This document shows positions 1-18,361 of a DNA stretch of 21,725 nt, one piece after another; position 1 is the stretch's first letter, and each line of letters begins with the position of its first letter. A model generated the notes under the pieces. It saw only the letters and a list, made by a program, of their open reading frames with translations. It made no database searches and was not told where the DNA came from. The translations under genes were made by a program, and so were the position numbers. Origin of the DNA: a virus; the IMG/VR virus record IMGVR_UViG_3300020442_002389, positions 1 to 21,725 of that record. One strand, 5' to 3'.

Positions 1-3000
1 ACTTGGGATATGTCAAATCTCTATGTCACTGGCGCTCATGTTGCTGGTGAAGAGACTCAAACAGTCCAAGCATTTGAATATGCTAGAGACCTGATGGTTC
101 AGGCAATGAGAAATGAGGTTATCCTTCCTGTAGGATCTCATGGTATTGCTCAATCATTTGATAATACTATCACTCAGAATTTAGCTACGCCAGTTGACAA
201 TAAGTCTGCTGATGCACGTAACCTAATTCTTGCTAATAAAAACTTCATTGCCGAAGTTGCATTTGGAAGAATGCGTGATGCATATCCTACATTTGCAGTT
301 CCAACTGGTAATAACCAAGACTGCATTGACGATATCAAAGATGTCATTGAAGTAGTTTCTCACAACCTTGCCTTTGGTGGTAATGATCGTGTTTGGGATG
401 CAGCAAATCTCTATGTCACTGGTGCTCATGTTGCTGGTGAAGAGGCACAAACCAATGCTGCTATGAACTATGCTAAGGATATCATGGCTCAGGTCATGAG
501 AAACGAGGTTGTAAATGACGGTGGTCATACTTCTATTCCACAGCAATTTGATCAAACAATTACTGTAGATAGCGGATCTCCTAAATGTGCTGCTCAGGAG
601 ACTACTCTGAGCACTCTCATGACTATCTTGACGAATGCTATTGCAGCACCAAACTTACATTATAATGTAACTAGAACTTCTTCTAATGGTCCTTGTGAAG
701 ATGTAAAATCTACTATTAATACTCTCACTGCAATTGCAACTAGCGCAATTCTTAATCCAGCTACATTGGGCGGTGTAACAAGATCTAGATCAGTTGGTTC
801 TTGTGAGGATGTAAGAGCAACTATTAACACACTGTTCCAGTTAGTACAGAACGCTGTTCTTACTCCAACCTCACTATCTTCAGTTCTCAGAACTGTATCT
901 AATGGATCCTGTCAGAATGTTGCATCTGCAATTACAACCCTATGGGATATTGTAACTAACACCATTGCTAATCCTGGATACCTTCAGGGTATTGATAGAG
1001 TTGAATCGCCACTGGGACTTGCATTTGGACCATCTGTAAATGCAAACGCAACCACTACTAATTCCTACCTCTATTTCACACTAGATGCTGGAGTATACAC
1101 TAGTGAGTTTACTCCAATTGTTGATGACACTATTACTCAGCATACATCATATCCTGAGTGTGCTGATCAGGCATCTGCTATCCGACAGTACTTCACTAAT
1201 ATCTCAACTATCATCCAGACAGGTTTGAACACTGTTCCTAGAGTTGAACCTACTCAACTTACTACGGAACTTGCTTCTAGAGCAACTGTTTGGACACTGA
1301 GAACTGGTTCAGGATCTAACCCACATAACCTAGAGACTGGTACTCCAGTAAGATTGGTTCCACGTCCTCGTTACGATACGATTACCAATCAGTACGTTGA
1401 TGTAGATAAGAGAAAGGTTAGACTTCCAAATGGATTTGAAACTAACGAGAAGTATTATGTAATTGCACCTGCAAGAAAAACAAAACCTGCATCGTATGAA
1501 GGAACATCAATATTTGATGGTACTGATCAAACTAAGATCATGCTTGCAAGCAGCAAAGAGAATGCTGCAGCAGGTATCTACATTCACTCAGCTGAAGTAG
1601 AAGGTATTGATCCAGATATTGAAATTGATGTCTATCAGTTTGTTCTTGATGATCGTTATGATCTACACCAGTATGCTTGTACACTTGAAGTATCCAGCAA
1701 TACTCAAATTCGTACTGATGTACCTCATATCTTTGATATTCCATTCGCTGATATTTCTGGTCACCAAGTATTCTTCAGACCAAATGAAGGCGGTAGCGTT
1801 CCTCTTGTAGGTTCAAACTATGCAGGAGATCCTACTGTTGGAGATGCAAATGGTAGAATTCGTGGAGACAGATTCTTCTGGGCAAGATATCAGACTGAGA
1901 AGACTTTCACTATTCACGCTTCTAAAGCAGATGCAATTGCTGACATCAATGCTATTACGTTCCAGACTGGTTCGTATGACTTCTCTGTATTCGCAGACAA
2001 GCGTGAATCTCCTGTAAGATATGATCCATCATATCAGAACCCAGGCACAACACCTACCATCTATGGTAAGTGGTACATGCAGTGTGAGGATCATTCTTCT
2101 AACAATCTTGATCCTGACTACGAATATAATATTCTCACTAGATTGCATGAGAATACTTACAGCGACCTCTCTGGTCAAGATAAGACCAATGACTCCTGGT
2201 TTGAAAGAATTAAGGATGAAAGAGACAAGGAAGATCGTATCTATCGTTTACGTTACGTTATCCCTGACTATCTACAGGCAGTTCGTGATCCTATTAATGG
2301 TTTCTCCATTAAGATCCGTAAGGACGAGACTAGAAAACTTCTACCACAGAAACTCGTACTTAAGCCTGTATCTGGTTCAGTAACAAAGGCGAGATTCTTT
2401 AACCCAGTTCAGGCAAATGAAGTCATTGGTTATACTAAGGATGATTTCATTAACTTCAGTCTGAATGAAGAGAATGCATATGATCCATACAAGAGAGATA
2501 TTGTAGGAACTACCAACTATGCTAAGAGCATTGAGACTTCTAACTATGTCTCAATGACTATTCAGTCAGGTAGATACTTTACTGAGCAGGGTAGTGGCGA
2601 TGAACTTTTAGAACTTACTGTATTTGATCTTGGCATTAAGAACGTTGGATTGCTTAATGAGACGTTTACTACTGTTAAAGTAACTGCACCTCAGGGTGGA
2701 AACTTTGTTGCTAATAAGACTCAATCTAACGCAACTAACAGAATTGAATGGTTCGGAAATTCTTCTGGATATGGATTTGTACATGCTGTATTGAATGTAC
2801 CTAACACTAGTGAATGGTATATTATTATCAAGGGTGTATCTGGTAAGATTAATTACTCTCAATTTGAGAACATCAGATTTACTCAAGGTGCTACATTTGC
2901 CGATCTACTAACTGATGAAGATTTTGGTAAATCACTATACATCAAGGACCTAATTGCAAAAAATTATCCTGAGTATTATTACCGTCAAAACGGCGCACCT

Positions 3001-6000
3001 GTTTATACTATCACTCCTGGTGATATTATCACTGACGATGACAATGTACAGTTCTACGTTGCATCTGTTGAAGATACTGGTGAACTTGATGATACATTCT
3101 ACATCTTTGATGTTGAAGAGATTCAGCGTCGTATCTACGGTCAGCAAGATGGTATCTATTACCTAACTGCTGTTCGTGGTAACATCTCACCATTCCCAAC
3201 TGGTGCTGGTAACCAGGGTAACTTCAGAAACATGAAGTTCTCTCAACCAATCAGCAAACTATATCCACTCAACTATAAGAATGATCCTCTCTGGTATAAG
3301 CAGTTAGATGCCTCTGCAGTTGATGCTCCTGCAACATATTCTGCTGCAGATAACTACACTCATGGTCTTGTAAGAGTTAACGACTTCAAGGGTTCAATGA
3401 CCCGTGAAGCAATGCTTGATTTTACACATCAGCCTGCACTATCTGACAACACTTATACTCAAGTCAGCAGCACCGAAGATAATAGACTTAGAGCACAGAA
3501 GGGTAACGCAACTTCTGGTTCTGAAGATCGTTTGATTCCTATTGCTGGTGACAGCAAGGTTATGTCCGATATGCGTCTCTACGTTGAATTACGTAGACCA
3601 TCTATCGCTCGTGCTGGTAACCACACGTTTGAATACCTTGGTTTCGGTCCTGGTAACTACTCCACTGGTCTACCTGCTAGACAGGAGATTGTTCTCACCC
3701 CAACTCAAGACTTCTATGCACAGTCTAAGAAGCAAGACGGTGGTCTCGTATTCTACACGGGTCTAAACTCCAACGGTGACCTATACATTGGTAACCGTAA
3801 GATTGATGCTATCACTGGCGAGGAAGAGTTCCTTGAATCTGCTGAGTTGGTTGATTCTGAAGATGATGCAGATGAAATCACTCAACTCGTTACTACGTTT
3901 GAAAATCCTGTAACCTTTAACGAGTATATCACCGTTAATGGTGGTGATCAGCAGGATCAACGTAGCACCTTCAACTCTCCTGTTACCATCAATGTTCTTG
4001 GTAGAGTAAGAGATCCAAATGAAGGATATGCACTACTAGTAATTTCTAATGTATCACCTAGTGATGGTGATGATGCAACTCTTGATAAGACTCAGCAGTT
4101 CCTTAACCAAGATACGTTTGGTGATATTGTAATTGCAAGAAACAGAGTTGCTGCTTCTATCTTCCAGTTCAACCCACGTGGATCAAACGGTGCTGGTCAA
4201 GGATATAAGATTCAGAACCATGTTGTTGGATCTATCGCTTCAAACATCACACCTAACCAGTCTGCACTATACAGCAGCGGACTTGGAACTGCAATTGATT
4301 CATCTCAGAATGTTCTTTATGGAACTAATGCTCCTCTCTCTGGAGATATGCTCCTCAAAGGTAGTGAAGTTGGTGGATCTGGATCTCTTGGTTGGATCTA
4401 TGCTAACTTCTTTGAAGTAGTTCCTGCTGCTAACATTCTCCACTTTACTATGGATGGCAGCACTGTCATTACTATTAGATGGGGCAGCAGTCTAACTAAC
4501 GAGCAAGTTGGTGTAACAAGTGGATCTCAAATTAGAATCTCTAACTTTAGTGATCCTGGATTTAATGGTCTATGGCAGATTGTTGGTAATGGATTTACTC
4601 CTTCTGCTAACACTTGTCAGATTGCTCTCATTGAGAACAGATCTAATGTTAATAATGAGAACCCAAGATTGTGGAGCAGTGAAGTAGCACTTGGTAATGG
4701 TGTAAGACTAGAGTTCTCTAATTCTTCTTGGAAAGAATTCGGTGTTCTCGGTGCTGAGGCAATCAGAACAAATACCAGTGAGATTGGTGATTATAAGTTA
4801 GGTATTAACACAGTTGCTCGTACACATCACGATGCATATCAGACTGCATTTGTTAATGTTGATACTGATCCTCGTGCTAATTTGGACGTTGTTGGTAATC
4901 TATTTGTTAGTGGAACAATTATTCCAGACTATCTTGACTATCCTACTTTTGCATCTAGACCACAAGAATTTACTGATCACGCAGTAATCGTTGGTGGAGA
5001 CAGTGCAACTCCAGATAATGCAGCGACGTTTAGAATTGCGACTACAAATGCTGGTCGTGTTGGTATTAATGTAACTAACAATGAACTAGACAGAGCACTG
5101 GTTGTAGATGGCACATCTAGATTTACTGATGATGCTAAGTTTGAGCATGACATTGAAGTCAATGGTGATGACGGTGTAGTTGCTGAGATTAGAACTTCTC
5201 AAACAACAGGTACATTCAACTTCTTGATGAATGACACCTTTGTTGGTCAACCTGATACAACTGGATTAAGAATTGCTGGTTGGGTTCAGAACATTGAACT
5301 AGGCAATGAGACTATTCTTGAGCAGACAATTGATATCGGTAATAGCAGTTACAATAGTGTTATTAACTTTGGTGCTACTCCTGATACACCTAATTCAAAT
5401 ATTTCTAAGGTAACTGTTGGTGGTGGTTACAATAATAACGAATCACTATCATTCGTTCAGATTGCTACTAAGTCCTTTAAAGTTGCTGGTGATTTCCAAC
5501 TCGGAACTAGAAGATTCCTTGAAGATACTGTCAACCTTTCCTCTACAGCAGGAACTGTTAACTTCTTCGCTGGAAACAGTAATACTAACACTCTAAACTT
5601 TGCTACTAATGCATCCACGATCACAATTGCTGGTCAGGGTGGTACTACAAGAATTAGAAACAAACTAGAGGTTGATGCATCTGCAAGATTTAATTCTAAT
5701 ATCACCCTTTGTGGTGGATTTGCATCGTTCCAGTTTACTGCATACAGAGGAAGATCTGGTTCTAACGAAGTTGAACATGCATCTGGAGATCTTGGAAACA
5801 ATCTCTTCAATCAGAACGTTGACATCATTACTGTTGACAGAAAGATTATTAGTGATACTGAGTACACTTCAATTGATGCTGCTGGTTCTGGTAACTGGGG
5901 TGGTATTTCTTATCAGCAAGCACTCACCAACATCGGTGGTAATCCTCAGATTGAACCACAAAATCTCCCAGCACTAACTGGTAATCAATATTACTTACCA

Positions 6001-9000
6001 CTAAGTCATAGTCCAGTTGATGCTGATGGAAATCCTCATTTTGTTGAGAATGATTATCTCTTAATTGATAGTCCTGAAGGCACTGGTAACTTCCTAGAGC
6101 AGCATAACTTTGGTGGTGACTCTGTTACTACCGATGCTACTCAGATTTCATTCATTCAAGAGTGGGCAGGTGGTGTTGATATCAGTGCATCTGGTGCTGG
6201 AACTGGAATGAGCAGTGGATTTGCAACAAACCAAAACTATCTCCACTTCCATACTTCCAGTAACCAAACTCAATATGGTCCAAGATATGTAACTTTTGCT
6301 CCTGTTGATGCGTCCTTCTATGGAGGACTCGGTGCAATTTCTAGAATAGATTTCTTCGCTCATGTTGGTAATAATCAAAATGGTGGTGAACTTCCTGATG
6401 CAATCAATGAGCATCTAGAGTTACGTTTCTCTGTTGATAACGGTCAAACATTCACTAAGATCGGTAATATTACTGAAACAAATCCTTATTCTGATACAGA
6501 TCTTGCTTCATGGCCATCGTTTGTTGAATGGATAGATCAAAGTGCAAACTATGCGAAATTCAGTGTTGACGTTCCAGTTCAGGCTCAGCAAGCTAATTGC
6601 ATGTTCCAGATCTACCAACCTGTTATTAGTGGACCACCATATGATAATGTTGGTTTTACTAAGGTTGAGTATTATTCTGGTTCTTCATTCACTGTTGATA
6701 CCCACGTTGAATTTGTAAAAGTTATTTCTACACCAAGAATTGCTGAAGAACCATATTATATCGTTGTTGAGAGAGAACCATTCGGTACTTTCACAGGTGT
6801 CAGAAATGATCATCCAGACGGAACACCAATCTATAAGGTAAATGTTCAGTTTGACGCTACTTGGATCAATCAGAATATTGACAATGTAGGAATCATTGAA
6901 AATGTATATCTTGCTGAATTTGGTGGATCAATCAATACCGATGATTATGTAATTATCAGCAGAGATTCTACCGCACCTAATGTTGAACCAGTTGTATATG
7001 ATCGTGGTGAGGTCTTTAAGGTTAATGAACCAATTGATCTAGTACCTAAGTTCTTTACAATCTCTTCTAACTGTGACACTGGAGATGATGTATTTGTTAT
7101 TGATTCTACTACAGGTGATACCACTATTGAAGGTGATGTAATCATCAATAACGGTCTTACAATCAATGGTGGTTGCGAGACAACTATTAAGGGTGTTATT
7201 ACTGGTAATACTTCACCAACATTTAACGGTGTAGCAACTAACATTATTACTGCCATCAGTGATATTGACATTGCTAAGGTTGCTATTGGAGACAATATCA
7301 AACTTGAACCTACTCAGACTGGATTAGATATAGAACTGTACAATAATCCAAAGATTATTGCGATTGATTTTGCTACAGATAACAATACAATCACAATGTC
7401 TGCTTATGCAGAGACAAATGCAGTCATTAGTTCAGTTCAATTTGTAGTTTATAACAATGAAGAATTTACCATCACAAATGGTAAAGGTCAGAATACACTA
7501 CATCATGATACTTGCACAGCTGCAACTGAAATTGGTAATCAGTTTAGAAGACTAGATGTTTCTAGAGTTCTTCCTGATTTACAATCTAGTGGCGATACAG
7601 TAAATCAATATGTTGATCAAAACATTAGAATTTATTCCTATTGGGCAGATCCTCGCACTATCAACCCAGGTGGACCTATAACCACTCTAACTTCAACTGC
7701 ATCAACTGGTGCTGTTGCTGGCAGCGTTTATCTACAAGTTGCTGAACTAGGAACAGGAACTGGAGCATTTGCTGTTGATGACTTAGTAATTGTTGGTAAG
7801 ACCGCTGATGTTGTTTCAAATGGTCTCCAAGGAAATGAGTGGGAGGTAATGAAGATTGTTGAGGTTGATGAAGTAGGTAAGGTTCTAAGATGTCTTCCTG
7901 CACAAGAATCAACCACTGCACTTGCTTTAGCAACATATCAAGCAACTACCACTACTGTTGTTAGAATCCTGAAGCACCCAGAGACAGCAACTCTAAAAGA
8001 TATTCAGAGCAGAACTCGTCCTAACTTTGGAGCTTTTGTATCCATTATCCTAGACAATGGTCATATCGCGCAACAAAAACTTGATTATTCAAACTTCTTG
8101 CGCTTCCATGATGTTGCTGGTGTAATTGATGATGCTTGGTTCTTCGTTAACGGTGGACTACGTGGCAAGTATCACACTGCTGTAATGAATGAGGAGATCC
8201 AGGTAGGCGTTAATCCATACAGAACTGGTGACCTAACACTCAACAATAATCTGTACTTACTTGGTGGCGGAATTAGCGTTAGAGACTCTGTAAACAAAAC
8301 TCAGATTCTTTCAGTTGATAATGATGATGGTCACGCAGATCACTCTGGTTCTATCTACTTTGATGCTGGTGTTGTTGGTAGAGGTGATATTAAACTCTAC
8401 TCAACTTCCTGCCCAGAAAACGTACTGCAAGCATCTTGTGATGTAACATTCCAAATTGATATCTTTGGTAATGGTATTGTTGGTAATACCTTAACAGTCC
8501 GTGGTCTTGCTAGTGAAACTCCAACCAAGACCGCTCAACTTGATATCACAAACTTGGGTCCAAATGGTGTTAACTCCTTCACTGTTAATAGAGACCAGTC
8601 AATTGATGCATTTGGATATGAAAACTTCTACACATCAAGTGGTGGTAGACATTCAAGATACGTTGCAAGTGGATCTGATGATGCTGCTAAGTTCTTAGTT
8701 CCAAACGTTCAATACTTTGCAAACGTCAATCCTGGTGATAATTTAATCTTGTACTTACCAGATAATCCACAGACTGGAGATACTGTATCTGTCATTGATG
8801 TCGGTGGAAATCTAACTTATGATACATCTCTTGTAATGAGAGCACAAGGAGTTGGTACAAGAGTTCAGGGTGATGGAACTGGAACTACAATTGGCATTGG
8901 TGGAACTACACCATACAGTGCGGGTGAGTTGATTGTTCAAACACCAAACGCTGGATTCACCCTTGTATACTTGGGTGGAACTGATTCTAACGGTACAATT

Positions 9001-9042
9001 GTTTCGTCTGCAGTACAGGGTTGGTGGCTCAAGGAGGTCTGA
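1..9042 (+). CDS. Giant virion structural / tail-fibre-like protein (5' end outside window)
   Basis: At least 3013 residues, still open at base 1. The Met codon at 10 is not a convincing start, because the Trp-Asp before it is part of a repeat that recurs intact 130 residues later (WDxxNLYVTGAHVAGEE at 4 and at 394). From 586 come four 36-residue repeats, each starting with Cys. At about 2191-2370 is a charged stretch (DSWFERIKDER...YRLRYVIPDYL...LLPQK) that I recall from large cyanophage structural proteins. Fibre-like strands follow (NPVTFNEYITVNGG near 3904; GRVGIN...LVVDGTSRFT near 5053-5127). A jelly-roll-like module with GNNQNGGELP lies at 6367-6396. The end (about 8692-9039) has the GDTVSVIDVGGN and GWWLKEV signatures common at the ends of T4-like marine phage virion proteins. 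No signal peptide or membrane segment is visible. A role in the tail, baseplate or fibre is inferred, and the exact position in the virion is unknown. Confidence 0.9.
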   Translation, partial: TWDMSNLYVTGAHVAGEETQTVQAFEYARDLMVQAMRNEVILPVGSHGIAQSFDNTITQNLATPVDNKSADARNLILANKNFIAEVAFGRMRDAYPTFAVPTGNNQDCIDDIKDVIEVVSHNLAFGGNDRVWDAANLYVTGAHVAGEEAQTNAAMNYAKDIMAQVMRNEVVNDGGHTSIPQQFDQTITVDSGSPKCAAQETTLSTLMTILTNAIAAPNLHYNVTRTSSNGPCEDVKSTINTLTAIATSAILNPATLGGVTRSRSVGSCEDVRATINTLFQLVQNAVLTPTSLSSVLRTVSNGSCQNVASAITTLWDIVTNTIANPGYLQGIDRVESPLGLAFGPSVNANATTTNSYLYFTLDAGVYTSEFTPIVDDTITQHTSYPECADQASAIRQYFTNISTIIQTGLNTVPRVEPTQLTTELASRATVWTLRTGSGSNPHNLETGTPVRLVPRPRYDTITNQYVDVDKRKVRLPNGFETNEKYYVIAPARKTKPASYEGTSIFDGTDQTKIMLASSKENAAAGIYIHSAEVEGIDPDIEIDVYQFVLDDRYDLHQYACTLEVSSNTQIRTDVPHIFDIPFADISGHQVFFRPNEGGSVPLVGSNYAGDPTVGDANGRIRGDRFFWARYQTEKTFTIHASKADAIADINAITFQTGSYDFSVFADKRESPVRYDPSYQNPGTTPTIYGKWYMQCEDHSSNNLDPDYEYNILTRLHENTYSDLSGQDKTNDSWFERIKDERDKEDRIYRLRYVIPDYLQAVRDPINGFSIKIRKDETRKLLPQKLVLKPVSGSVTKARFFNPVQANEVIGYTKDDFINFSLNEENAYDPYKRDIVGTTNYAKSIETSNYVSMTIQSGRYFTEQGSGDELLELTVFDLGIKNVGLLNETFTTVKVTAPQGGNFVANKTQSNATNRIEWFGNSSGYGFVHAVLNVPNTSEWYIIIKGVSGKINYSQFENIRFTQGATFADLLTDEDFGKSLYIKDLIAKNYPEYYYRQNGAPVYTITPGDIITDDDNVQFYVASVEDTGELDDTFYIFDVEEIQRRIYGQQDGIYYLTAVRGNISPFPTGAGNQGNFRNMKFSQPISKLYPLNYKNDPLWYKQLDASAVDAPATYSAADNYTHGLVRVNDFKGSMTREAMLDFTHQPALSDNTYTQVSSTEDNRLRAQKGNATSGSEDRLIPIAGDSKVMSDMRLYVELRRPSIARAGNHTFEYLGFGPGNYSTGLPARQEIVLTPTQDFYAQSKKQDGGLVFYTGLNSNGDLYIGNRKIDAITGEEEFLESAELVDSEDDADEITQLVTTFENPVTFNEYITVNGGDQQDQRSTFNSPVTINVLGRVRDPNEGYALLVISNVSPSDGDDATLDKTQQFLNQDTFGDIVIARNRVAASIFQFNPRGSNGAGQGYKIQNHVVGSIASNITPNQSALYSSGLGTAIDSSQNVLYGTNAPLSGDMLLKGSEVGGSGSLGWIYANFFEVVPAANILHFTMDGSTVITIRWGSSLTNEQVGVTSGSQIRISNFSDPGFNGLWQIVGNGFTPSANTCQIALIENRSNVNNENPRLWSSEVALGNGVRLEFSNSSWKEFGVLGAEAIRTNTSEIGDYKLGINTVARTHHDAYQTAFVNVDTDPRANLDVVGNLFVSGTIIPDYLDYPTFASRPQEFTDHAVIVGGDSATPDNAATFRIATTNAGRVGINVTNNELDRALVVDGTSRFTDDAKFEHDIEVNGDDGVVAEIRTSQTTGTFNFLMNDTFVGQPDTTGLRIAGWVQNIELGNETILEQTIDIGNSSYNSVINFGATPDTPNSNISKVTVGGGYNNNESLSFVQIATKSFKVAGDFQLGTRRFLEDTVNLSSTAGTVNFFAGNSNTNTLNFATNASTITIAGQGGTTRIRNKLEVDASARFNSNITLCGGFASFQFTAYRGRSGSNEVEHASGDLGNNLFNQNVDIITVDRKIISDTEYTSIDAAGSGNWGGISYQQALTNIGGNPQIEPQNLPALTGNQYYLPLSHSPVDADGNPHFVENDYLLIDSPEGTGNFLEQHNFGGDSVTTDATQISFIQEWAGGVDISASGAGTGMSSGFATNQNYLHFHTSSNQTQYGPRYVTFAPVDASFYGGLGAISRIDFFAHVGNNQNGGELPDAINEHLELRFSVDNGQTFTKIGNITETNPYSDTDLASWPSFVEWIDQSANYAKFSVDVPVQAQQANCMFQIYQPVISGPPYDNVGFTKVEYYSGSSFTVDTHVEFVKVISTPRIAEEPYYIVVEREPFGTFTGVRNDHPDGTPIYKVNVQFDATWINQNIDNVGIIENVYLAEFGGSINTDDYVIISRDSTAPNVEPVVYDRGEVFKVNEPIDLVPKFFTISSNCDTGDDVFVIDSTTGDTTIEGDVIINNGLTINGGCETTIKGVITGNTSPTFNGVATNIITAISDIDIAKVAIGDNIKLEPTQTGLDIELYNNPKIIAIDFATDNNTITMSAYAETNAVISSVQFVVYNNEEFTITNGKGQNTLHHDTCTAATEIGNQFRRLDVSRVLPDLQSSGDTVNQYVDQNIRIYSYWADPRTINPGGPITTLTSTASTGAVAGSVYLQVAELGTGTGAFAVDDLVIVGKTADVVSNGLQGNEWEVMKIVEVDEVGKVLRCLPAQESTTALALATYQATTTTVVRILKHPETATLKDIQSRTRPNFGAFVSIILDNGHIAQQKLDYSNFLRFHDVAGVIDDAWFFVNGGLRGKYHTAVMNEEIQVGVNPYRTGDLTLNNNLYLLGGGISVRDSVNKTQILSVDNDDGHADHSGSIYFDAGVVGRGDIKLYSTSCPENVLQASCDVTFQIDIFGNGIVGNTLTVRGLASETPTKTAQLDITNLGPNGVNSFTVNRDQSIDAFGYENFYTSSGGRHSRYVASGSDDAAKFLVPNVQYFANVNPGDNLILYLPDNPQTGDTVSVIDVGGNLTYDTSLVMRAQGVGTRVQGDGTGTTIGIGGTTPYSAGELIVQTPNAGFTLVYLGGTDSNGTIVSSAVQGWWLKEV
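4..513 (+). repeat. Direct repeat pair, 390-nt period, in giant structural gene
   Basis: Copy A spans about 4-123 and copy B about 394-513. They are very similar in DNA and protein: both encode WD-x-x-NLYVTGAHVAGEE, then a helix ending MRNEV. The identical DNA includes a 19-base block and a 21-base block separated by one C/T difference. Copy A touches the window edge, so more copies may lie upstream. This is an in-frame segmental duplication within the coding sequence. Confidence 0.9.
586..1017 (+). repeat. Four tandem 36-residue Cys-anchored repeats
   Basis: Cys codons at 586, 694, 802 and 910 are each exactly 108 nt apart. Each begins a unit of the form C-(E/Q)-(D/N)-V-x-x-x-I-x-T-L, followed by a helix, a Pro and a short strand (V-x-R-x-x-S-x-G-x). 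The first unit is the most divergent (CAAQETTLSTLM). Related but non-tandem units start at Cys 322 (DCIDDIKDVIEVV) and Cys 1159 (ECADQASAIRQYF). The constant length without gaps suggests a helical solenoid or a trimeric stalk repeat. Confidence 0.85.
9031..9038 (+). promoter_or_regulatory. Strong Shine-Dalgarno for first collar gene
   Basis: AAGGAGGT lies inside the last codons of the giant structural gene, 7 nt before the ATG at 9046. It is a near-perfect anti-16S match and fixes the start of the 474-aa gene. The two downstream collar genes have no comparable site. Confidence 0.8.
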
Positions 9043-9045
9043 TAG

Positions 9046-10470
9046 ATGGCAAGTTACAATCGTATTAAAACATCTAAAATCGCCCCAATTGGCACTATCA
9101 TGCCATGGGGCGGTGGATCAGCGTCAGGAGAAAATTTGGAAAATGTTCCTCCTGGTTGGATTGTATGTGGAGTATCATCAGCACAATTAAATGCTGCAGA
9201 TTACCCACTACTAGCAAGTATCATGGGTAATACTTATGGACCTTTACCACCTGATGCAAGTTTTGTTACTGGAACTAATTGGGGTATTGTAAATCCTTTT
9301 CCATACAATCCACCTGCTGGTAGAGAAGGACATAATCCAAATAGACATGTTGATACATTTGGTCTTCCAAATCTCAATCAGTTAGCATTAGTTGATATTG
9401 AAGGTGATAGACAATATGATAGTGAACCTGCTAATAGTAGTGCTTTAGATGCTTCAGCATTATTGGTATTAGGAAATACAATAAGTGAAAATGGTACTGA
9501 GGGTGATTTACCTGATGTACTGCAAAGTTCTGATGTTGATCTTATATTTGATCTGGAACCAGCTGGAAACCTTGCAGGAAGAATCACTGGCATTGTCATG
9601 GAAGATCCTATTTACTTTGACACTGTATATGCTTTACCTAGAAAACTAGGTATTGATCATATTGCTGCACACACTCACAGACCAGCATCAGATTCTGAAT
9701 TTGATCAATTTTGGTCTGCTGGAGCTAGTGCTAGTCATGTATTAGAATTCCAACCAGGACGTGCAGAACTTTCTGGTGATGGTGATGGTACAACTTCTGC
9801 CACTGCAATTGGAAGAAGAGGAGATTTTGCTCATAGTTTTAACTCTAATCCAGAGTATAACCTAACTTGGGTTAACCCAGATAATCCAGCAGACACTTTA
9901 GTTCCTGGCATGGATAAGGTTATAGTTGACTTTAAGAAGACACTTTTACCAGATAATTCTCTAGTTAGTCAAAGTAGAACAATTGAAGCAAGATCACCTG
10001 TTCAGCAAGATTATGATGAAGATAACCGTGCAGTTGCAAATGTTCAGGAACCAGCAAACGTCGGAACATTCCCTCCTGCAGGAAGATATTCTGGCAAAAG
10101 AAATTTTTATGCATCTCCTGATATTCCTGCAGTTTATAGGGGTGCTGACATGCCTTCAGTTTATGTACAGGACATTCCATATGATGGAGCAACTACACCA
10201 CAACCTATAAATACTGTTGTATCTAACACTTATACAACTACATTAAACCACGACTATGAGGGTTGGATTGACAGGGGATTGCAATCTCACACCCATGACG
10301 CAATGGAAGTTACCATGTCTAGAGGTAGTCTTTCCGTTCCAACTACAATTTTGGTTAATGATATTTCTACTGGCAGTTCAATTCCCGTGTCTATTGAGAC
10401 TGCATTAAGTATTCAAATGGATATCAACACACCATCTCAAACCGTAATGTATATTATTAGAGCATTCTAA
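9046..10470 (+). CDS. Tail-collar domain protein 1 (short-fibre / receptor-binding type)
   Basis: The 474-aa product starts 3 nt after the giant gene's stop. Residues 14-115 carry the phage tail-collar signature (PF07484 type): PIGTIMPWGG, PPGWIVCG, a YPLLASIMGNTYG core, and FGLPNLN. T4 gp12 and many phage fibres use this fold at the tip. Two His-x-His motifs, HTH at 209-211 and 415-417, resemble the metal-binding HxH of T4 gp12 and gp37. Between the collar and the first motif is an acidic, Ser-rich insert (about 120-175) with no recognised fold. The C-terminus, MYIIRAF, matches the 1849-aa neighbour. The role is inferred to be a baseplate or short-tail-fibre component contacting the host surface. 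The collar assignment is firm, while the gp12 equivalence is uncertain. Confidence 0.9.
   Translation: MASYNRIKTSKIAPIGTIMPWGGGSASGENLENVPPGWIVCGVSSAQLNAADYPLLASIMGNTYGPLPPDASFVTGTNWGIVNPFPYNPPAGREGHNPNRHVDTFGLPNLNQLALVDIEGDRQYDSEPANSSALDASALLVLGNTISENGTEGDLPDVLQSSDVDLIFDLEPAGNLAGRITGIVMEDPIYFDTVYALPRKLGIDHIAAHTHRPASDSEFDQFWSAGASASHVLEFQPGRAELSGDGDGTTSATAIGRRGDFAHSFNSNPEYNLTWVNPDNPADTLVPGMDKVIVDFKKTLLPDNSLVSQSRTIEARSPVQQDYDEDNRAVANVQEPANVGTFPPAGRYSGKRNFYASPDIPAVYRGADMPSVYVQDIPYDGATTPQPINTVVSNTYTTTLNHDYEGWIDRGLQSHTHDAMEVTMSRGSLSVPTTILVNDISTGSSIPVSIETALSIQMDINTPSQTVMYIIRAF
10206..10213 (+). promoter_or_regulatory. Possible internal late promoter octamer TATAAATA
   Basis: This is an exact match to the T4 late promoter core, inside the first collar gene and about 260 nt upstream of the second. 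In AT-rich coding DNA such a match could be chance. It would add late transcription of the second and third collar genes. Confidence 0.25.
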
Positions 10471-10471
10471 C

Positions 10472-11857
10472 ATGGCTGTATTCTATAATAAAGAAAAGGC
10501 GAAACTGGGTTCGCTATCAGGCATGATTATATCTTTTCCTGTTGAGGTTGTTAATGATAATCCATCTGCTGCTATAAACAAGGAATTACTTCCTGCTGGT
10601 TATCTCAGATGTGATGGTAGAGTTTTGTTTGCTGAAGAGTACCCTATCCTAGCAGAAGTTTTGGGTACAGGTGGAAATTCAAAGTACAAACAAGAATCTA
10701 CTATCTTATCAAATAATCAATTTCAACTACCAGATTTAAGAAATAAACATATTAGAGCAACAACTTCATCTAATATTGGTCAGATGAATGATTTGACTGT
10801 TGAGGATGCCGAAGGAAATACAATTTTAAAGTCAGGTGTTGGATTAGATGTTATCCAAAACGTTGAGAGTCCTCTGCAATTAACATATACTGGCGAGTTT
10901 TATGTTCCTCCTCAAGAAATGCCATTGAGAGGAGAACCTGCGTTCTCTGTTAGTAGTGGTGCATATACAGAAATAGTTGATGTTCCTGCTAGGGCATTCC
11001 AACCACACATGCATAGAAGTACAACAACTCGTGCAAGACAAAGAGCAAAGAACAATGCAGACTTCAGTGCATTTGCAAGTAACTATGCTAGACATCCAAG
11101 TTCATTGAATGTTTGTCAATGGTGGGAAAATACAGAACAGATTCTTTGTTATTGGGCAATGACCAGTATTCAACTTACAGGGCGAGATGCTGGTACATTT
11201 TTTACAGGACCATCATCTTATTGCTACAACTATGGTGCATGTTTTAATGATGTCTGCTCTGGATTTATTGGCGCTGAAGGTCTTTGTTTATGGCCATCTG
11301 AAGGATTATGCCCAGAAGTTGATAATAAAGATTGGTGTATTACTAAAACTGGTGACTCTAACAATCACCATGAGGGTAAAGAATGTGATGGAGAAACGTT
11401 CGGTAACAATATATTCTACCCATCAACATATATTCAAAGATGTGTATGTACTCTTGCTATTTTTGGTGAATGTCTTGGTGGTGCAAACGGAAAAGGCATT
11501 AATGAAGATAACTCTGATGAATTAACTAACTGGCCACCACCATCATATAGTGGTGAGTTAACTCCATATGAAAACCTACCATTTACTACATTTGACGATG
11601 AAAATTATCAAACTGGATTGGTTGGTGTTAGTAACATTACAACAACAACTGGTGAGGTAGGATCTGATGGAACTCATAGACATAGACTAGATTTTAACTC
11701 AGATGAACCACATACATATACATTGAAGACAAGAGCTGCAACTATGAGACCTGAAGGTGGAATAGTTTCACGAATTACGATTAAAGCAAGCACTAGCAGA
11801 AAGGCGGATAGATATATCCAACCATACGTTATCACCGAATATCTAATTAAAATCTGA
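10472..11857 (+). CDS. Tail-collar domain protein 2 with cysteine-rich insertion
   Basis: The 461-aa product's ATG comes one base after the previous stop, with no clear Shine-Dalgarno, so it is probably translationally coupled. Residues 13-96 show the collar pattern: GSLSGMIISFP, LPAGYLRCDG, EEYPILAEVLG, then FQLPDLRNKHIRA. HMH (179-181) and HRH (402-404) parallel the paired HxH motifs of the neighbouring collar genes. Between them, residues 215-334 contain 12 of the protein's 13 cysteines, plus several Trp residues. Such density is unusual for a phage protein folded in a reducing cytoplasm. The C-terminus, YVITEYLIKI, resembles those of its two paralogues. The protein is inferred to be a receptor-binding or baseplate component. 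The Cys-rich domain matches no family I recognise. Confidence 0.9.
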   Translation: MAVFYNKEKAKLGSLSGMIISFPVEVVNDNPSAAINKELLPAGYLRCDGRVLFAEEYPILAEVLGTGGNSKYKQESTILSNNQFQLPDLRNKHIRATTSSNIGQMNDLTVEDAEGNTILKSGVGLDVIQNVESPLQLTYTGEFYVPPQEMPLRGEPAFSVSSGAYTEIVDVPARAFQPHMHRSTTTRARQRAKNNADFSAFASNYARHPSSLNVCQWWENTEQILCYWAMTSIQLTGRDAGTFFTGPSSYCYNYGACFNDVCSGFIGAEGLCLWPSEGLCPEVDNKDWCITKTGDSNNHHEGKECDGETFGNNIFYPSTYIQRCVCTLAIFGECLGGANGKGINEDNSDELTNWPPPSYSGELTPYENLPFTTFDDENYQTGLVGVSNITTTTGEVGSDGTHRHRLDFNSDEPHTYTLKTRAATMRPEGGIVSRITIKASTSRKADRYIQPYVITEYLIKI

Positions 11858-14800
11858 TGGCACTTTACAGATCTACGTTACCTAATTACTATTCTGACAA
11901 GGGAGGATCCTACGTAACTGTGGGTGCTATCGTACCTACTTTGGTTGGTATTAATAGTGATAGAACTAATGGACTGGTAACAGAAGATCCAGAGTATGAT
12001 TATAGAGGATATCTTTATTGTGATGGAGCAGAATATCATATCAAAGATTATCCAACTTTATATGAAAAATTAGGTAATGAATACAACAAAACTACTGATG
12101 TTAACAGGAATGCTACAGTTTTTACTGCAGCTGGTGCTCCAGGAACTATCAGAAGAATGTTTGTTGATAGTGGCAATGTTTATATTGAGGTATATGGTGA
12201 AGCAAAAACAAATCCAGATGGCACAACATATTATGATAGGGTAATTCCAAACGATGCAAACCTATCAATCTTAGATTTAATGTCCTTCCCAGGTGGAAGA
12301 ACATGGTATAAAACAAGATCGCCATATGCGAGCACGTGGAATAATTTCATGCAGAATTACTCTGTATGGGTCTCAACAAATGATGCTGCTGTTGGTCAAG
12401 CCTGGAATTTTGGTGGAACAGTCAACATTCCTTCAACTGGCAATTATAAAATCCAAGTAGCATCTGATAATACTTGCACCGTAACTTTTAATGGTGGTAC
12501 ATATAACCAATCTGGATTTAACGATGGTTCAATGGTGACATATGATCTTGGAACTGTTGCTGCTGGAAATTACCAAATAACATTTTCTGCAACTAACAAT
12601 CCAAGTGCTGACGGGGATGATAGTTGGTCAAATAATCCTGGTGGTATTGCTTTAAAAATTTATAATAGTGCTGATGGTGCAGAGGTATGGTCAACGAGAG
12701 ATGATGTTGCTGGCAGTGCAACTGCTAATACTCTTGCCGAGGGTCAGTTTTATCTCTTAAACTATACTGCTGCTGATCAATCTCTAGCAATAGGATCCGA
12801 CACCCATATTTACAGGGTACTGATAAATTATAATCCATTGACAGGAACTGGCGGAACTCCTGGCGGAACTGTTACATGGCCTATTGTATCATCATCTCTA
12901 CTCAATGATGGTAGTGAATATCCAATTCTTCCTGTTAGTTTTGCAGGAACTGTACCTGAAATTGATCCTCAAACTTACGATCCATTGACAGGAACAGGAT
13001 ATCCTACTGGATATGATAGTTATGTTGGAGCTGAAAATAATACTCCTGCGTTATCTTGGGGAACGATGGTTGGTCTCCCTGATGGCATCAGCGTAGAGAG
13101 TTATGAGTTGATGATGGAGGATATGTCAGCTAATGGTGATGAACCACCTACAGATGCATTTCCACAGTGGTGGGTATCAGATATTCCACCAACGTTTACA
13201 TCTATTCCATCTAATGGAACATGGCCTAATGGAGTTACAATTAACCAGAATCAGGTTCAAGGAACATCCTTGGGAACTAGTCCTGATTGGGTAAATAACG
13301 GATACTCTGGACCACAACCTCCAGCAGGTGAGAAGCACATTTACAGAGTACATGTAAAAGCAAATCTATCAAATGGTTCATATATTGTTTCTAATCTAGA
13401 TTTTACTTTTGGTGATGGACCACAAGCTCAAATACCTATTACAAAACAACCATATTATGAAGAGGATCTTGATGTTGAAGGCACAGGTTCTGGTATTACA
13501 AACCCAAATCTAAACATAGATTTTACTCAGTTTGCAACTCAAAACCCTGACGCAGGCACAGGACACCCAACAGTTAGAATTGCAAAAGCTTTTAGACTAG
13601 AAGATTATCCATATATTCTAGGTAAATTTAGAGTACCTGATTATAGAGATAGAAAACTGATTGGATTTGGTGAAGGTGTAAGTGGAGCTGGAACACCGTT
13701 GGTTGAGGGTAGAGTCTCAATGAACATCGGTGATATTGGTGGAAGATGGTATATTACTACTGATATTATTGACGAACCAGGAGAATTCTTTGAGATTAGT
13801 GATGTTACTACTACAGGTTATAGTGATGTAAATACACAAATTGAACCATATTTGATTGGTGAGAAGAAATATGTTGTTGGACCAATCCAAGATTATATTT
13901 TTAACAAAGCACCAACTCACGATCACCAACTTCTTCATAGTGTACCTGAAGAGTCAACTGAAGCTCCTATTGGTGGTATGGATAATTACACCTCTGCATT
14001 CAGTAGAATTAAAGGTTCTGTTATGCAGTTCATTCCTGGTGGAGAATCTGGAGATGGTATTGCTAAAGGACACTCACATGGACTGTTAGGAAATAGACCA
14101 TCAAATGCTAGAATTGCTACGTATGGAAATACTGACGGTATAGGTGAAAGAATAGCATCAAATGCTCTACCAACTGTAAATTTTGCAATTACTGATATAT
14201 TAACAGCTGGAAGTGGTATTGAAGCTGTTGATCTTAACGATACTTATCTCTTGAATTGGGGATCTGGATCAGGAGAGACTGGTGGATTTGCTAATCCTGG
14301 ATTAGCACAAGCACAGTACCTTTCAATGTCTTCATATGGTCTGTCACCAGAAGATCACCTGCAATATAATCGTTTTGCCATTTTAAAACTGGATTTGACA
14401 GGATATGCTAAGCTATCAATTCTTGCTATTGCAGGTAATGATAATAATGGTGGAGAACGTCCTAATAACCCAGGTGAAGGATTAAGACTAATTTGGCCAA
14501 ATGGTAATGAGATTACAATACTCCCGTCAAAGCAAGATACTAGTTTTAACTTTGATCAATATGACGCAGAATATGCATTTTGGAAGTCAACTATAGTTGA
14601 AATCCCTGAAGTCTATAGGACAAGTGACGTACAAATTAGATTTCAACAGAATTCCAACCCAAGTAGTAACAGTCCAAGTGAATATAAAGATGGTGATGAA
14701 GACGCTACACACCCAAATGGTTATGATGCTATTGGTATTGCAACTATTGGTTTGCTTGAAGGTAGTGATTCAGGTAGTACTTGGGATGGATGTTACAACT

Positions 14801-17406
14801 ATAGTATTACTGAAGCACCTGCTGTAGATATTGCATCTTGGTCTGGTGATGGCACAAATCTGAATATTGTTACTGCAGCAGATCATGGTTTAAAACCTGG
14901 CGACAGTGTGGTTGTATTCGGAACAGGAGATTCTAATGCTGATGGAATATATGAAGTAGAAGATTCTGGATATACTGCTACTTCATTACGAGTCTTATCA
15001 TCAGTAAGTGGTGGAGGAACTAGTGGACAAGTAAGAGAAGCTGCTGGTTATTTCCAAGATCAAACATATACTCCTACTCCAAGAATGTATACAGTTGATC
15101 AAAATACTGTTATTGGTGGAAAACTTATTCCTGCGGTGAACGTTGGTAAAGGAGAAGTTCGCTATAACAATTCATATACACCAGGAACTTATACTATTGG
15201 TGCTCTTGCAAGAACATCATCATTCCAAATTGATATGTACGCTGGTGGTGGCGGCGGTGGAGGTTCTACAGGCAGTGGTGGTAATGGCGGTAATACAAGT
15301 ATTACATTCTTTGTTGATGGCGTATCCCATACTATTACTTGTACTGGTGGACAAGGTGGAGGATCTGGTAATGGTGGCGGTTCTGGTGGACAAGGTGGAA
15401 CAGTAACAATTCCTGCTGCTTTGATAAATGACAACCGATTCCAATTTAATATTGATGATAATAGAGATGGACAATCTGCTGCCAATGGCGGAAACGGTGG
15501 TCAAGGAGCTGGTGGAGGTTCTGGCGGTGGTGATGGTGGAAATAGTGTAACCATTATCAGTGGATCGGAGACCAGAACGTTCTATAATAGTGGAAGTTTT
15601 AATGCTAATAGTGTAGTTCCTTCTGGTGGTAGTATAACCAGCGTTACATTAGCTGCTTCTGGCGCAGCAGGTGGTGATGGAAACCCCAATGGAAACTCGG
15701 GATGTTCTGCAGCTGGTGGATCTAGAGGAAGTGGTAGATATATTCAAGGAAAAATTAATGCTGGTGGAACTTTCTCACACCAAATTGGTACTCAAGGAGC
15801 ACGAGGTTGGAACTATTATACTGGTAAGCAAACAGAACCTTGGAACTATGGTGGAGGTTCTGGTGCTGGTGTAGGTGGCGCAGGCGGTCGTGGTGCATGG
15901 GGTAACGGTGCTACTGGTGGTGCTGGTGGTGGTACTACTAGCATTTCTAATGGTAGTGGTTATCTACTTGGCGCTGGCGGCGGTGGCGGCGGCGGTGGAT
16001 CAGGTGGTGGTTACAATGGTGGTAACATCACTGACCCATGTTGGACTGGTGGATCTGGTGTTCCTCATCCTTCTGGATACTATGGTGCAAACTCTATCGG
16101 TCCTGGTGCTGGTCAGCAAGGTGGTATCGCAGGTTGCACCGCTGGTGGCGGTGGCGGCGGTGGAGGTGGTTTCGGTCCCTCTGGCGGCGGTGGCGGTGGC
16201 GCAGGCGGACAAGCAGGTGCTGGTCACGTCAACACTGGATCTGGTGATGGTGGACAAGCAGGAAGATGTGCTGCTAGAACAAGTGTAATTTCTGATGTAT
16301 ACGAAACTAGTGGATCATCTGCTGGTGGATATGTAACATATGTTGTAAACTATAACGGAACTGTTGATAATCCAGCAGGTGGTGGAGGTGGCGGTGGTGC
16401 CGCTCTATCGTTTGGATTTGCTGTAAATGACTATCTTAATGAAGATATTTCTACTAGTTTTGTAATTAATGTTGGTGCTGCAGGTAATGCTGGTAGTGGA
16501 GAGGGTGGTGCCGCTGAAAATGGTTTCGTACAAATAGAAGCATTTGAAATTGTTGCAACTGAAGTTGGTAATGACGAACTAACATCTCCTTCTGGTAGAT
16601 ATTATGAAGTTCCTGGACTACCAAGTGATGCTCCTAATTTCCCAGATACTTTCTTTAATCAAGGTATCTTTATAGGTGCTAGTGCAAATGTAGATGTTAA
16701 AACATCAACTGGAAGTAATTTCCCTCTAGCAACTACAAAATCTGACGGAAAAGCAAACAGATACATTGAATTCGCTGGATATAATAACAGATATCTTGAA
16801 ATGGGTCCAATGAATCTAGAAAATGTCAATCAAATGATATTTACTGTTATTCAGGGTAATAATAGTAATGGTGGAGAAACACCTGAAGAGAATCTGATGT
16901 TATATTATAGAAACTCTGAAGACAGTCCAACTGAAAACTTAATTGAAGCAGTTGCTCTTGGTGGTCCTGGTGCAGCAGGATATGTCAATTACATTATAGA
17001 TCTAGATGAAGAAAATGATGCGAGAAAGAATGGAGTCATTCTTGTTCTTCGTCAAGATAGACCAGAAAGTGCTGGTGACAATGATCTAGTTCCTGATGGA
17101 AAAACAAATGATAATTATGGACTAGCGCAACTTGGTCTTGTATATGATGAAGTAACTGAACAGGTATTTGTACCATCTAGTGATGCTACTTTGCCTGGTA
17201 ATGAAGGTGCATGTGGTCCAGATACTGGTATCAATGTAATTCGTAGAACAGTTAGTGCTACTGCTTCAAATATTAGATTTACTGACGGATTACTTACATT
17301 AACAGGATCAACACCAATATCTGTAACTGCAGATGCACGTGTTTTAGAACCAATTCCGCTTTTAACTAGATACCATCGCGCAAAGTATTTAATTAAAGCG
17401 TTCTAA
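11857..17406 (+). CDS. Giant collar / PEBP-like / glycine-rich adhesin-like protein
   Basis: The 1849-aa product overlaps the previous stop by one base (TGATG). Modules by residue: the first half of a tail-collar domain (YRGYLYCDG at 49, DYPTLYEKLG following); a beta-sandwich (about 148-285: VWVSTNDAAVGQ, PSTGNYKIQVASDN, then an NPGGIALKI-like end); a PEBP/YbhB-like domain (about 343-520); the second collar half (DYPYILGKFRVPDYRDRK, about 583-600); HDH at 688 and HSH at 739; a jelly-roll-like module with GNDNNGGERP at 860; a short HGLKPGDSVVVFGTG domain (about 988-1050); a glycine-rich region (1129-1560); a second jelly-roll-like module with GNNSNGGETP at 1667; and the C-terminus KYLIKAF. It is probably a fibre tip or adhesin. 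Gly-rich domains of T4-like gp38 adhesins bind host receptors, so a similar role is inferred here. The collar and Gly-rich calls are firm, and the PEBP call is good by motif. Confidence 0.9.
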   Translation: MALYRSTLPNYYSDKGGSYVTVGAIVPTLVGINSDRTNGLVTEDPEYDYRGYLYCDGAEYHIKDYPTLYEKLGNEYNKTTDVNRNATVFTAAGAPGTIRRMFVDSGNVYIEVYGEAKTNPDGTTYYDRVIPNDANLSILDLMSFPGGRTWYKTRSPYASTWNNFMQNYSVWVSTNDAAVGQAWNFGGTVNIPSTGNYKIQVASDNTCTVTFNGGTYNQSGFNDGSMVTYDLGTVAAGNYQITFSATNNPSADGDDSWSNNPGGIALKIYNSADGAEVWSTRDDVAGSATANTLAEGQFYLLNYTAADQSLAIGSDTHIYRVLINYNPLTGTGGTPGGTVTWPIVSSSLLNDGSEYPILPVSFAGTVPEIDPQTYDPLTGTGYPTGYDSYVGAENNTPALSWGTMVGLPDGISVESYELMMEDMSANGDEPPTDAFPQWWVSDIPPTFTSIPSNGTWPNGVTINQNQVQGTSLGTSPDWVNNGYSGPQPPAGEKHIYRVHVKANLSNGSYIVSNLDFTFGDGPQAQIPITKQPYYEEDLDVEGTGSGITNPNLNIDFTQFATQNPDAGTGHPTVRIAKAFRLEDYPYILGKFRVPDYRDRKLIGFGEGVSGAGTPLVEGRVSMNIGDIGGRWYITTDIIDEPGEFFEISDVTTTGYSDVNTQIEPYLIGEKKYVVGPIQDYIFNKAPTHDHQLLHSVPEESTEAPIGGMDNYTSAFSRIKGSVMQFIPGGESGDGIAKGHSHGLLGNRPSNARIATYGNTDGIGERIASNALPTVNFAITDILTAGSGIEAVDLNDTYLLNWGSGSGETGGFANPGLAQAQYLSMSSYGLSPEDHLQYNRFAILKLDLTGYAKLSILAIAGNDNNGGERPNNPGEGLRLIWPNGNEITILPSKQDTSFNFDQYDAEYAFWKSTIVEIPEVYRTSDVQIRFQQNSNPSSNSPSEYKDGDEDATHPNGYDAIGIATIGLLEGSDSGSTWDGCYNYSITEAPAVDIASWSGDGTNLNIVTAADHGLKPGDSVVVFGTGDSNADGIYEVEDSGYTATSLRVLSSVSGGGTSGQVREAAGYFQDQTYTPTPRMYTVDQNTVIGGKLIPAVNVGKGEVRYNNSYTPGTYTIGALARTSSFQIDMYAGGGGGGGSTGSGGNGGNTSITFFVDGVSHTITCTGGQGGGSGNGGGSGGQGGTVTIPAALINDNRFQFNIDDNRDGQSAANGGNGGQGAGGGSGGGDGGNSVTIISGSETRTFYNSGSFNANSVVPSGGSITSVTLAASGAAGGDGNPNGNSGCSAAGGSRGSGRYIQGKINAGGTFSHQIGTQGARGWNYYTGKQTEPWNYGGGSGAGVGGAGGRGAWGNGATGGAGGGTTSISNGSGYLLGAGGGGGGGGSGGGYNGGNITDPCWTGGSGVPHPSGYYGANSIGPGAGQQGGIAGCTAGGGGGGGGGFGPSGGGGGGAGGQAGAGHVNTGSGDGGQAGRCAARTSVISDVYETSGSSAGGYVTYVVNYNGTVDNPAGGGGGGGAALSFGFAVNDYLNEDISTSFVINVGAAGNAGSGEGGAAENGFVQIEAFEIVATEVGNDELTSPSGRYYEVPGLPSDAPNFPDTFFNQGIFIGASANVDVKTSTGSNFPLATTKSDGKANRYIEFAGYNNRYLEMGPMNLENVNQMIFTVIQGNNSNGGETPEENLMLYYRNSEDSPTENLIEAVALGGPGAAGYVNYIIDLDEENDARKNGVILVLRQDRPESAGDNDLVPDGKTNDNYGLAQLGLVYDEVTEQVFVPSSDATLPGNEGACGPDTGINVIRRTVSATASNIRFTDGLLTLTGSTPISVTADARVLEPIPLLTRYHRAKYLIKAF
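15241..16545 (+). repeat. Glycine-codon (GGN) rich repetitive tract
   Basis: Runs of GGT/GGC/GGA codons (for example at 15241-15264, 15973-16003, 16141-16164, 16183-16206 and 16378-16400) encode Gly runs of up to about 9 separated by Ser, Ala, Asn and aromatic residues. The runs are locally GC-rich in an AT-rich phage. Gain or loss of whole GGN units would keep the frame, so this is a plausible length-variable tract. Confidence 0.85.
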
Positions 17407-17437: not shown

Positions 17438-18361
17438 ATGGCGACAAGTAATGCTACTTTGTTTTTGAATGCCTACGAGAAGACACTCACATATAAAGGT
17501 ATTCAAAAAGAAATCAATGATTCTTATTGGGAAGAACATATAGTTCCCATCCTATATCCTTTATGGGATAGTGACAAGGATAGACTAGAACTATTTGTTT
17601 ACAGAGAGAATGGTCAATATCTAATTGAAAAGAATAAGTATACGAAAAACTTTAAGACTGGTGAGTCAAAGTGGGTTTCGTATGAGTTTGACCCAAATGG
17701 TGTTGATCTATTATCAGTTACTGAACTTTATGAGTCTCTCAAAGAAAAGTTTCTTGACTTCAAAGAGTTATCAGAAGCTGAGTATGAGACTGCAGTTCAG
17801 AAAAAGTTTGCTGTTGGTCAAATCTTGACATGGAATAAAGTTAAACTTGTCCGTTTATTCCTGTTACAAGATAGTGATTATACACAACTTCCTGATTCTC
17901 CTTGTACTGATGAGGAGAGAGCATTGTGGAAGCAATATAGAAACTATCTTAGAGACTTCCTGACACTACAGACACCTCAAAGTCCATATGATGTCATTTT
18001 CCCTATTACTCCTACTGAATATCTTTCACGTAAGGGTTTTGAATTATCTCCAATACAAGTAGAAGTATATGGTCAGCAAGGTAGTGACGAGGATTATCTT
18101 ACTAGTGGATATCATTTCTGGAAATTGTCATCAAATGCACTAAAATCATTTGCTCAAAGAATGAGCACATATGTTGCATTGAGAACACTCACTGCTGAGA
18201 ATGATAAGTTTGGACGTGTTGAAGTTAAGAAGTGGATCGCTCCTGATAATCAAATCACTCAAGGTATTAGAAATACTTTGGAAGTTGAGCATGGATCTCA
18301 AGAGAGTGCAGAGAGTTATCTTGATCAGTTAATGAAACGAATTGAGAACGGAGAAGTCTGA
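17438..18361 (+). CDS. Tail assembly chaperone-like protein
   Basis: The 307-aa product has its ATG 8 nt after AGGA, behind the late promoter at 17407. Residues about 130-195 carry the signature of the phage tail assembly chaperone family (PF16778 type): a helix, LLQDSDYTQLPDSP, then DEERALWKQYRNYLRDF and a Pro-rich TPQSPYDVIFP. In other phages these proteins help fold or assemble tail fibres, and their genes often follow fibre genes, as here. The protein is much longer than a lone chaperone domain. It has an N-terminal domain (1-125, mixed alpha/beta, charged) and a C-terminal domain (195-307, FWKLSSNALKSFAQRMSTYVALRTL, mainly helical) that I cannot assign. It probably assists the collar/adhesin proteins just upstream. 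This is an inference from domain and position. Confidence 0.75.
   Translation: MATSNATLFLNAYEKTLTYKGIQKEINDSYWEEHIVPILYPLWDSDKDRLELFVYRENGQYLIEKNKYTKNFKTGESKWVSYEFDPNGVDLLSVTELYESLKEKFLDFKELSEAEYETAVQKKFAVGQILTWNKVKLVRLFLLQDSDYTQLPDSPCTDEERALWKQYRNYLRDFLTLQTPQSPYDVIFPITPTEYLSRKGFELSPIQVEVYGQQGSDEDYLTSGYHFWKLSSNALKSFAQRMSTYVALRTLTAENDKFGRVEVKKWIAPDNQITQGIRNTLEVEHGSQESAESYLDQLMKRIENGEV

Follow-up and report, generated by a model that had tools for sequence, protein, structure and literature searches.

Proteins of the PEBP/RKIP/FT/YbhB family (PF01161, TIGR00481), which occur in bacteria, plants, and animals, have a small sandwich fold with a pocket for anions. They are stand-alone, and a review of them recognizes five near-invariant residues: three that line the cavity rim (Asp71, His87, and His118) and two that form a salt bridge (Asp73 and Arg119) (PMC8793217). 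Rare multidomain members occur in actinobacteria, where YbhB is fused to carbohydrate modules; these share a link to sugars with the proteins described below, but they are cellular rather than phage proteins and carry the PEBP domain at the C terminus (PMC8793217). PEBPs are also found on a phage record (L016) or at a prophage edge, as YbcL and YbhB encoded within or beside lambdoid prophages of E. coli, but there they are stand-alone cargo or a flanking host gene, have the canonical residues, and are not virion proteins. A different kind of precedent is the phage Ig-like domains, beta-sandwich display domains that occur on several classes of virion protein, some of which are thought to aid adsorption (Fraser et al. 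2006, as reviewed in PMC9022992).

We analyzed a viral DNA stretch of 21,725 nucleotides from IMG/VR (the window), in which a PEBP domain lies inside a 1849-aa tail protein (Table 1). This domain resembles the known family by homology, motif order, predicted fold, and the retention of Asp71, His118, and the GYxGPxPP loop. Unlike that family, the phage copies are embedded in virion tail proteins, always lack the D73/R119 pair, vary at His87, and have a new invariant Glu and Arg. Compared with the phage Ig-like domains, it has an unrelated fold, is an internal insertion, was found only in uncultured marine phages, and shows no frameshift control. The same domain is nonetheless present in several unrelated virion proteins, and these have relatives with empty sites, as for promiscuous display domains; by analogy, the PEBP module may act like the promiscuous Ig-like domains without being one of them. 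Our main reading, to which we assign a probability of about 0.6, is that it is a roaming virion-display module on the tail of T4-like marine cyanophages, recombined into unrelated proteins and binding a ligand on the surface of picocyanobacteria.

Table 1. Features of the window that bear on the embedded PEBP domain (residue numbers refer to the 1849-aa protein).
Feature	Position	Strand	Basis or remark
3010-aa tail protein, first gene of the window	10..9042	+	without PEBP
474-aa short tail fibre protein	9046..10470	+	phrog_4591; without PEBP (HMM)
1849-aa tail protein, carrier of the PEBP domain	11857..17406	+	ORF; collar-like halves, PA14-like, PEBP, Gly-rich region, ...YLIKAF C-terminus
First collar-like stretch, GYLYCDGAEYHIKDYPTLYEKLGNEY	12007..12084	+	upstream of the inserted domains; from sequence
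PA14-like stretch, residues 165-298	12349..12750	+	PF07691 E 0.0057, below cut-off
PEBP (YbhB/RKIP-type) domain, residues 339-525	12871..13431	+	PF01161 match; AlphaFold2 models; PDB fold matches
E421-D422-M-S424	13117..13128	+	equivalent of D71-P-D73; D71 retained and preceded by a new invariant Glu, D73 substituted
Q437	13165..13167	+	position of pocket-rim His87; H/L/N/Q/I in relatives
G482-YSGPQPP-P489	13300..13323	+	conserved second signature loop of PEBP
H494-I-Y496-R497	13336..13347	+	retains His118 and Tyr but not Arg119; invariant Arg at +3 from the His
Second collar-like stretch, FRLEDYPYILGKFRVPDYRDRKLIGFGEG	13573..13677	+	downstream of the PEBP domain; phrog_30655 match 577-770
Glycine-rich region of the 1849-aa protein	15241..16524	+	from sequence
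Tail assembly chaperone/fibre assembly protein, adjoining the tail protein	17438..18361	+	PF16778 2.2e-8, phrog_4697

An earlier note on this DNA had proposed the PEBP domain from five motifs, all of which are present, in frame, and in the order it gave: SSSLLNDGSEYP, NNTPALSW (residues 394-401), SYELMMEDMSANG (with EDMS at 421-424), QWWVSDIPP (beginning with Q437), and GYSGPQPPAGEKHIYRVHV (from residue 482 and including H494 and Y496). The domain is where the note placed it, at about residues 343-520, but is slightly wider (339-525). PF01161, with a curated cut-off of 24 bits, matches the excised stretch at 43.0 bits (E 7e-11) and the whole protein at 37.9 bits (E 2.7e-9), and it exceeds the cut-off in 14 of 14 related viral records; phrog_5139 also matches the domain, more weakly than PF01161. 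A profile built from 25 viral relatives retrieves solved PEBPs, namely E. coli 1fux (E 5e-8), H. pylori HP0218 (E 1.6e-5), and YbhB 1fjj (E 8.5e-5), the best chain other than these reaching only E 0.19. Two AlphaFold2 models point to the same fold, and in a PDB fold search with either one, PEBPs were the only matches below E 0.001. The model made with the viral relatives (pLDDT 82.6, pTM 0.80) matched only Chlamydia CT736 and H. pylori HP0218 below this threshold in Foldseek, the predicted fold agreeing best with CT736 (TM 0.72 when normalized to target length and 0.59 to query length), while an earlier, shallower model (pLDDT 70) had E. coli YbhB among its two best fold matches. The best fold and sequence matches are thus PEBPs rather than members of the immunoglobulin-like superfamily (I-set, Big, FN3), and the assignment is far beyond chance. 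By sequence and predicted fold, residues 339-525 belong to the PEBP superfamily; because they depart from two of its residue signatures and score below the cut-off of the YbhB/YbcL subfamily (TIGR00481, 34.9 bits against 57.75), we place them in a divergent virion branch.

The protein that carries the domain is a Kyanoviridae-type tail protein. It has relatives in phrog_30655 and phrog_4924 (PHROGs), its tblastn matches are cyanophage tail proteins, its ORF is syntenic with S-WAM2 AOV61725.1, and the tail genes of the window as a whole match T4-like Synechococcus phages (tblastn). The first collar-like stretch resembles the part of the S-WAM2 orthologue that Pfam calls Collar. The Gly-rich region is long, contains Gly runs, and may resemble the Gly-rich receptor-binding tips of some T4-like phages. 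Together with the collar and PA14-like parts and the adjoining fibre-assembly gene, it gives the PEBP domain the setting of a putative receptor-binding protein.

The PA14-like stretch has a tblastn match to a ‘PA14 domain-containing protein’ of ACG-2014g. In the window, L008, and L009 it directly precedes the PEBP domain, and it is absent from that position in L001-L007. Something similar seems to lie within the Gly-rich region of L004 and L005 instead, so it may be a second variable module that also roams.

A search for the same fusion elsewhere, using the PEBP domain as query together with a DNA pattern for GYxGxxPPxGxxHxY and sorting the matches by the ORF that holds the motif, recovered 28 other IMG/VR contigs with a PEBP domain at the same place in the same protein, between the two collar-like stretches of the Gly-rich tail protein. 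Three further copies lie on viral contigs binned in marine MAGs. When only the downstream flank (from residue 563 on) was used as the query, 11 relatives were found, and all 11 were PEBP carriers that were already known. On the strength of these sequence matches, the PEBP domain is a standing component of the family rather than a peculiarity of a single contig. All of the virion contigs that carry it are metagenomic, and most are partial.

The larger point, which the earlier note missed, is that the PEBP domain roams across several unrelated virion proteins. The IMG/VR pattern scan and a scan with a second alignment revealed it in about six other virion-protein contexts. Homologues of the 474-aa neighbor in L085 and L050 are short tail fibres with a PEBP domain, and homologues of the first gene of the window in L124, L085, and L050 are giant tail proteins with one; L085 and L050 thus have two copies each, in adjacent genes. 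In L082 the domain occupies a different site in an S-WAM2-like collar protein, in L084 it belongs to a fibre with a LamG-like start (judged by eye from the sequence), and in L122 to a repeat fibre. The carrier in L015 is a T7-like nozzle protein, with Pfam Phage_nozzle (PF25675) and PBP (PF01161) in one ORF; it is known from a single 4.6-kb contig, which stops shortly past the insert, and some of the fibre copies likewise come from single short contigs. A tree with few outgroups and long branches separates four stand-alone PEBPs from the virion-protein PEBPs, all of which fall into a single clade (100/99).

Cultured relatives of three of these carriers have empty sites. S-WAM2 aligns to the L082 collar protein before and after an insert of about 185 residues, Sf-CH1b aligns to both sides of the PEBP domain in the L085 short tail fibre, and the S-SRP01 nozzle protein continues across the L015 junction once a 195-residue insert is skipped. 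To judge from these alignments, the domain is therefore an insertion and not an ancestral presence. At the DNA level, L082, L084, and L122 share 80.7-83.6% identity over about 620 bases of the module, in genes that are otherwise unrelated and with the matches confined to the module; the podovirus copy (L015) is 69-76% identical to these three. At its left border the module has the same 19 bases, AGTCAAACTATTACTGGTG, in L082 (3115-3133), L084, and L015 (3901-3919), and the sequences upstream of them are unrelated among the three; this border may mark a recombination join.

Among the matches listed for tblastn of the PEBP domain and of complete carrier proteins in 50,697 phage records, no isolate has an embedded copy, and neither the S-WAM2 nor the ACG-2014g record contains PF01161 anywhere. 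The matches in E. coli phages are stand-alone YbcL cargo and were rejected as virion PEBPs, as were most short pattern-scan matches (158-225 aa), which are ybhB-like genes at the ends of prophage contigs. No phage fibre of this kind has been described as far as the earlier note was aware, and this still stands: the BFVD structure search with the domain model returned nothing below E 0.001, and we found no description of PEBPs in phage fibres, tails, or cyanophages in a literature search whose coverage excluded most subscription papers.

The pocket was compared over 29 distinct virion copies. The position of Asp71 is Asp in 27 and Asn in two (D422 in the window), and that of His118 is His in all 29 (H494), although the pattern scan itself used this His, the Tyr, and parts of the GYxGxxPP loop, which inflates their conservation. 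The copies found independently of the pattern (L002, L012, L122, L124, L085b, and L050b) keep the His, a Tyr or Phe, and the new Arg, although the Pro-Pro pair is altered in L122 and L124. In the window, the HxY of the earlier note (His494, Tyr496) is indeed kept. Its statement that the His of the HW motif is replaced applies to the window copy (Q437) and not to the family, as 11 of the 29 copies keep His at the His87 position, the others having Leu (10), Asn (5), Gln (2), or Ile (1); the Asp71/His87/His118 triad is accordingly complete in ten copies, and broken in the window at Q437. The note did not mention the second conserved Asp (D73) and the Arg (R119), which are lost in every copy (0/29 for each; S424 and I495 in the window). 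Two other charged residues are invariant in 29 of 29 copies: Glu421, adjoining Asp71, and Arg497, three residues past His118. Stand-alone YbhB copies from the same scan have canonical DPD, HW, and HRY motifs and serve as a built-in control. With Asp, His, and Tyr retained and an invariant Glu and Arg added, the pocket probably still serves for binding, but its enzyme-like set of residues is broken.

Recombination has carried the module into unrelated virion proteins of marine myo- and podoviruses. If the main reading is correct, it would be exposed on the tail; its carriers (tail fibre, collar, and nozzle) are presumably the virion components that make contact with the host. What remains of the pocket would bind a sugar or an anionic ligand on the surface of the host, which the related phages suggest is a picocyanobacterium, and the outcome would be weak, reversible attachment, with the residue at the lost rim His (437) tuning specificity. 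Since the module is kept while the carrier changes, it is most simply seen as a surface-binding display domain, and likely a novel type of interchangeable adhesive patch with which the phage grips its host. A bolder version, which we offer tentatively and would not yet favor, makes it an exchangeable host-recognition cassette of contractile- and short-tailed cyanophages, in which Glu421 and Arg497 replace Asp73 and Arg119 and residue 437 sets glycan specificity; if true, such a cassette would be a new class of phage surface-binding fold.

Alternatively, the domain could be an inert structural spacer, a fold that stiffens, shields, or is displayed without binding a small ligand, and whose motifs serve only to keep the fold. 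The absence of the first pocket His from 18 of 29 copies, which could be decay rather than tuning, and the universal loss of D73 and R119 are compatible with this, and phage Ig-like tail domains have been reported as non-essential for infection (PMC9022992). However, the polar pocket residues D422, H494, E421, and R497 vary hardly or not at all, even though overall identity among the copies drops to about 30%, and upkeep of the fold alone would not be expected to need the rim His and Asp, so we regard a spacer as unlikely.

The surface-binding reading leaves the nature of the ligand to be considered. The earlier note thought of a lipid headgroup as one possible target, and binding of a lipid or phosphate headgroup, as in eukaryotic PEBPs, would fit the family name, its anion binding, and the retained HxY. 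The window copy, however, lacks the first pocket His; the PEBP cavity has been judged neither hydrophobic nor large enough for a lipid (PMC8793217), and lipid A of marine Synechococcus has no phosphate and contains galacturonic acid (PMC4515613). Given these properties of the cavity and of the lipid A, a phospholipid ligand is improbable, and a surface glycan appears the better guess. It is less probable still that the module is an enzyme that modifies the host surface or a small molecule at entry: the family has been argued to be enzymatic from its cluster of two His, two Asp, and an Arg (PMC8793217), but the window copy lacks three of these five and none of the 29 distinct copies has D73 or R119, and with this constellation broken the module is probably not catalytic. 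Assembly chimeras of phage tail genes with a bacterial ybhB-like gene, suggested by the shortness of some fusion contigs (L015 and L082, 4.6 kb; L084, 5.8 kb), can be set aside for the protein family of the window, as the same fusion, in frame at both junctions, recurs in tens of metagenome contigs, and the virion copies lack the canonical residues that stand-alone YbhB copies of the same scan have.

The receptors of marine cyanophages and the parts of the virion that bind them are mostly unknown, and a domain that jumps between tail proteins of unrelated phages marks where selection may act on attachment. The PEBP module is also a small, expressible unit for tests of host attachment. Moreover, it is an ancient fold of disputed function that has been reused outside the cell with its signature residues partly stripped, which bears on the role of these residues in PEBPs generally.

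Several records encountered in the searches deserve separate mention. A match in MT835538.1 (L019) was rejected because its PEBP is stand-alone and actinobacterial-looking and the record is marked UNVERIFIED; although it is in a phage collection, this record resembles an actinobacterial chromosome, with glycosyltransferase-like ORFs, the stand-alone PEBP, and a MerR/HspR-like regulator. MAG records labeled Euryarchaeota, Gammaproteobacteria, and Proteobacteria (L117, L118, and L119) hold contigs with cyanophage tail clusters, and these contigs are probably viral and mis-binned. In the window itself, a 202-aa ORF just 3' of the tail genes (18755-19363) has a sub-threshold match to the 2OG-Fe(II) oxygenase family PF13759.
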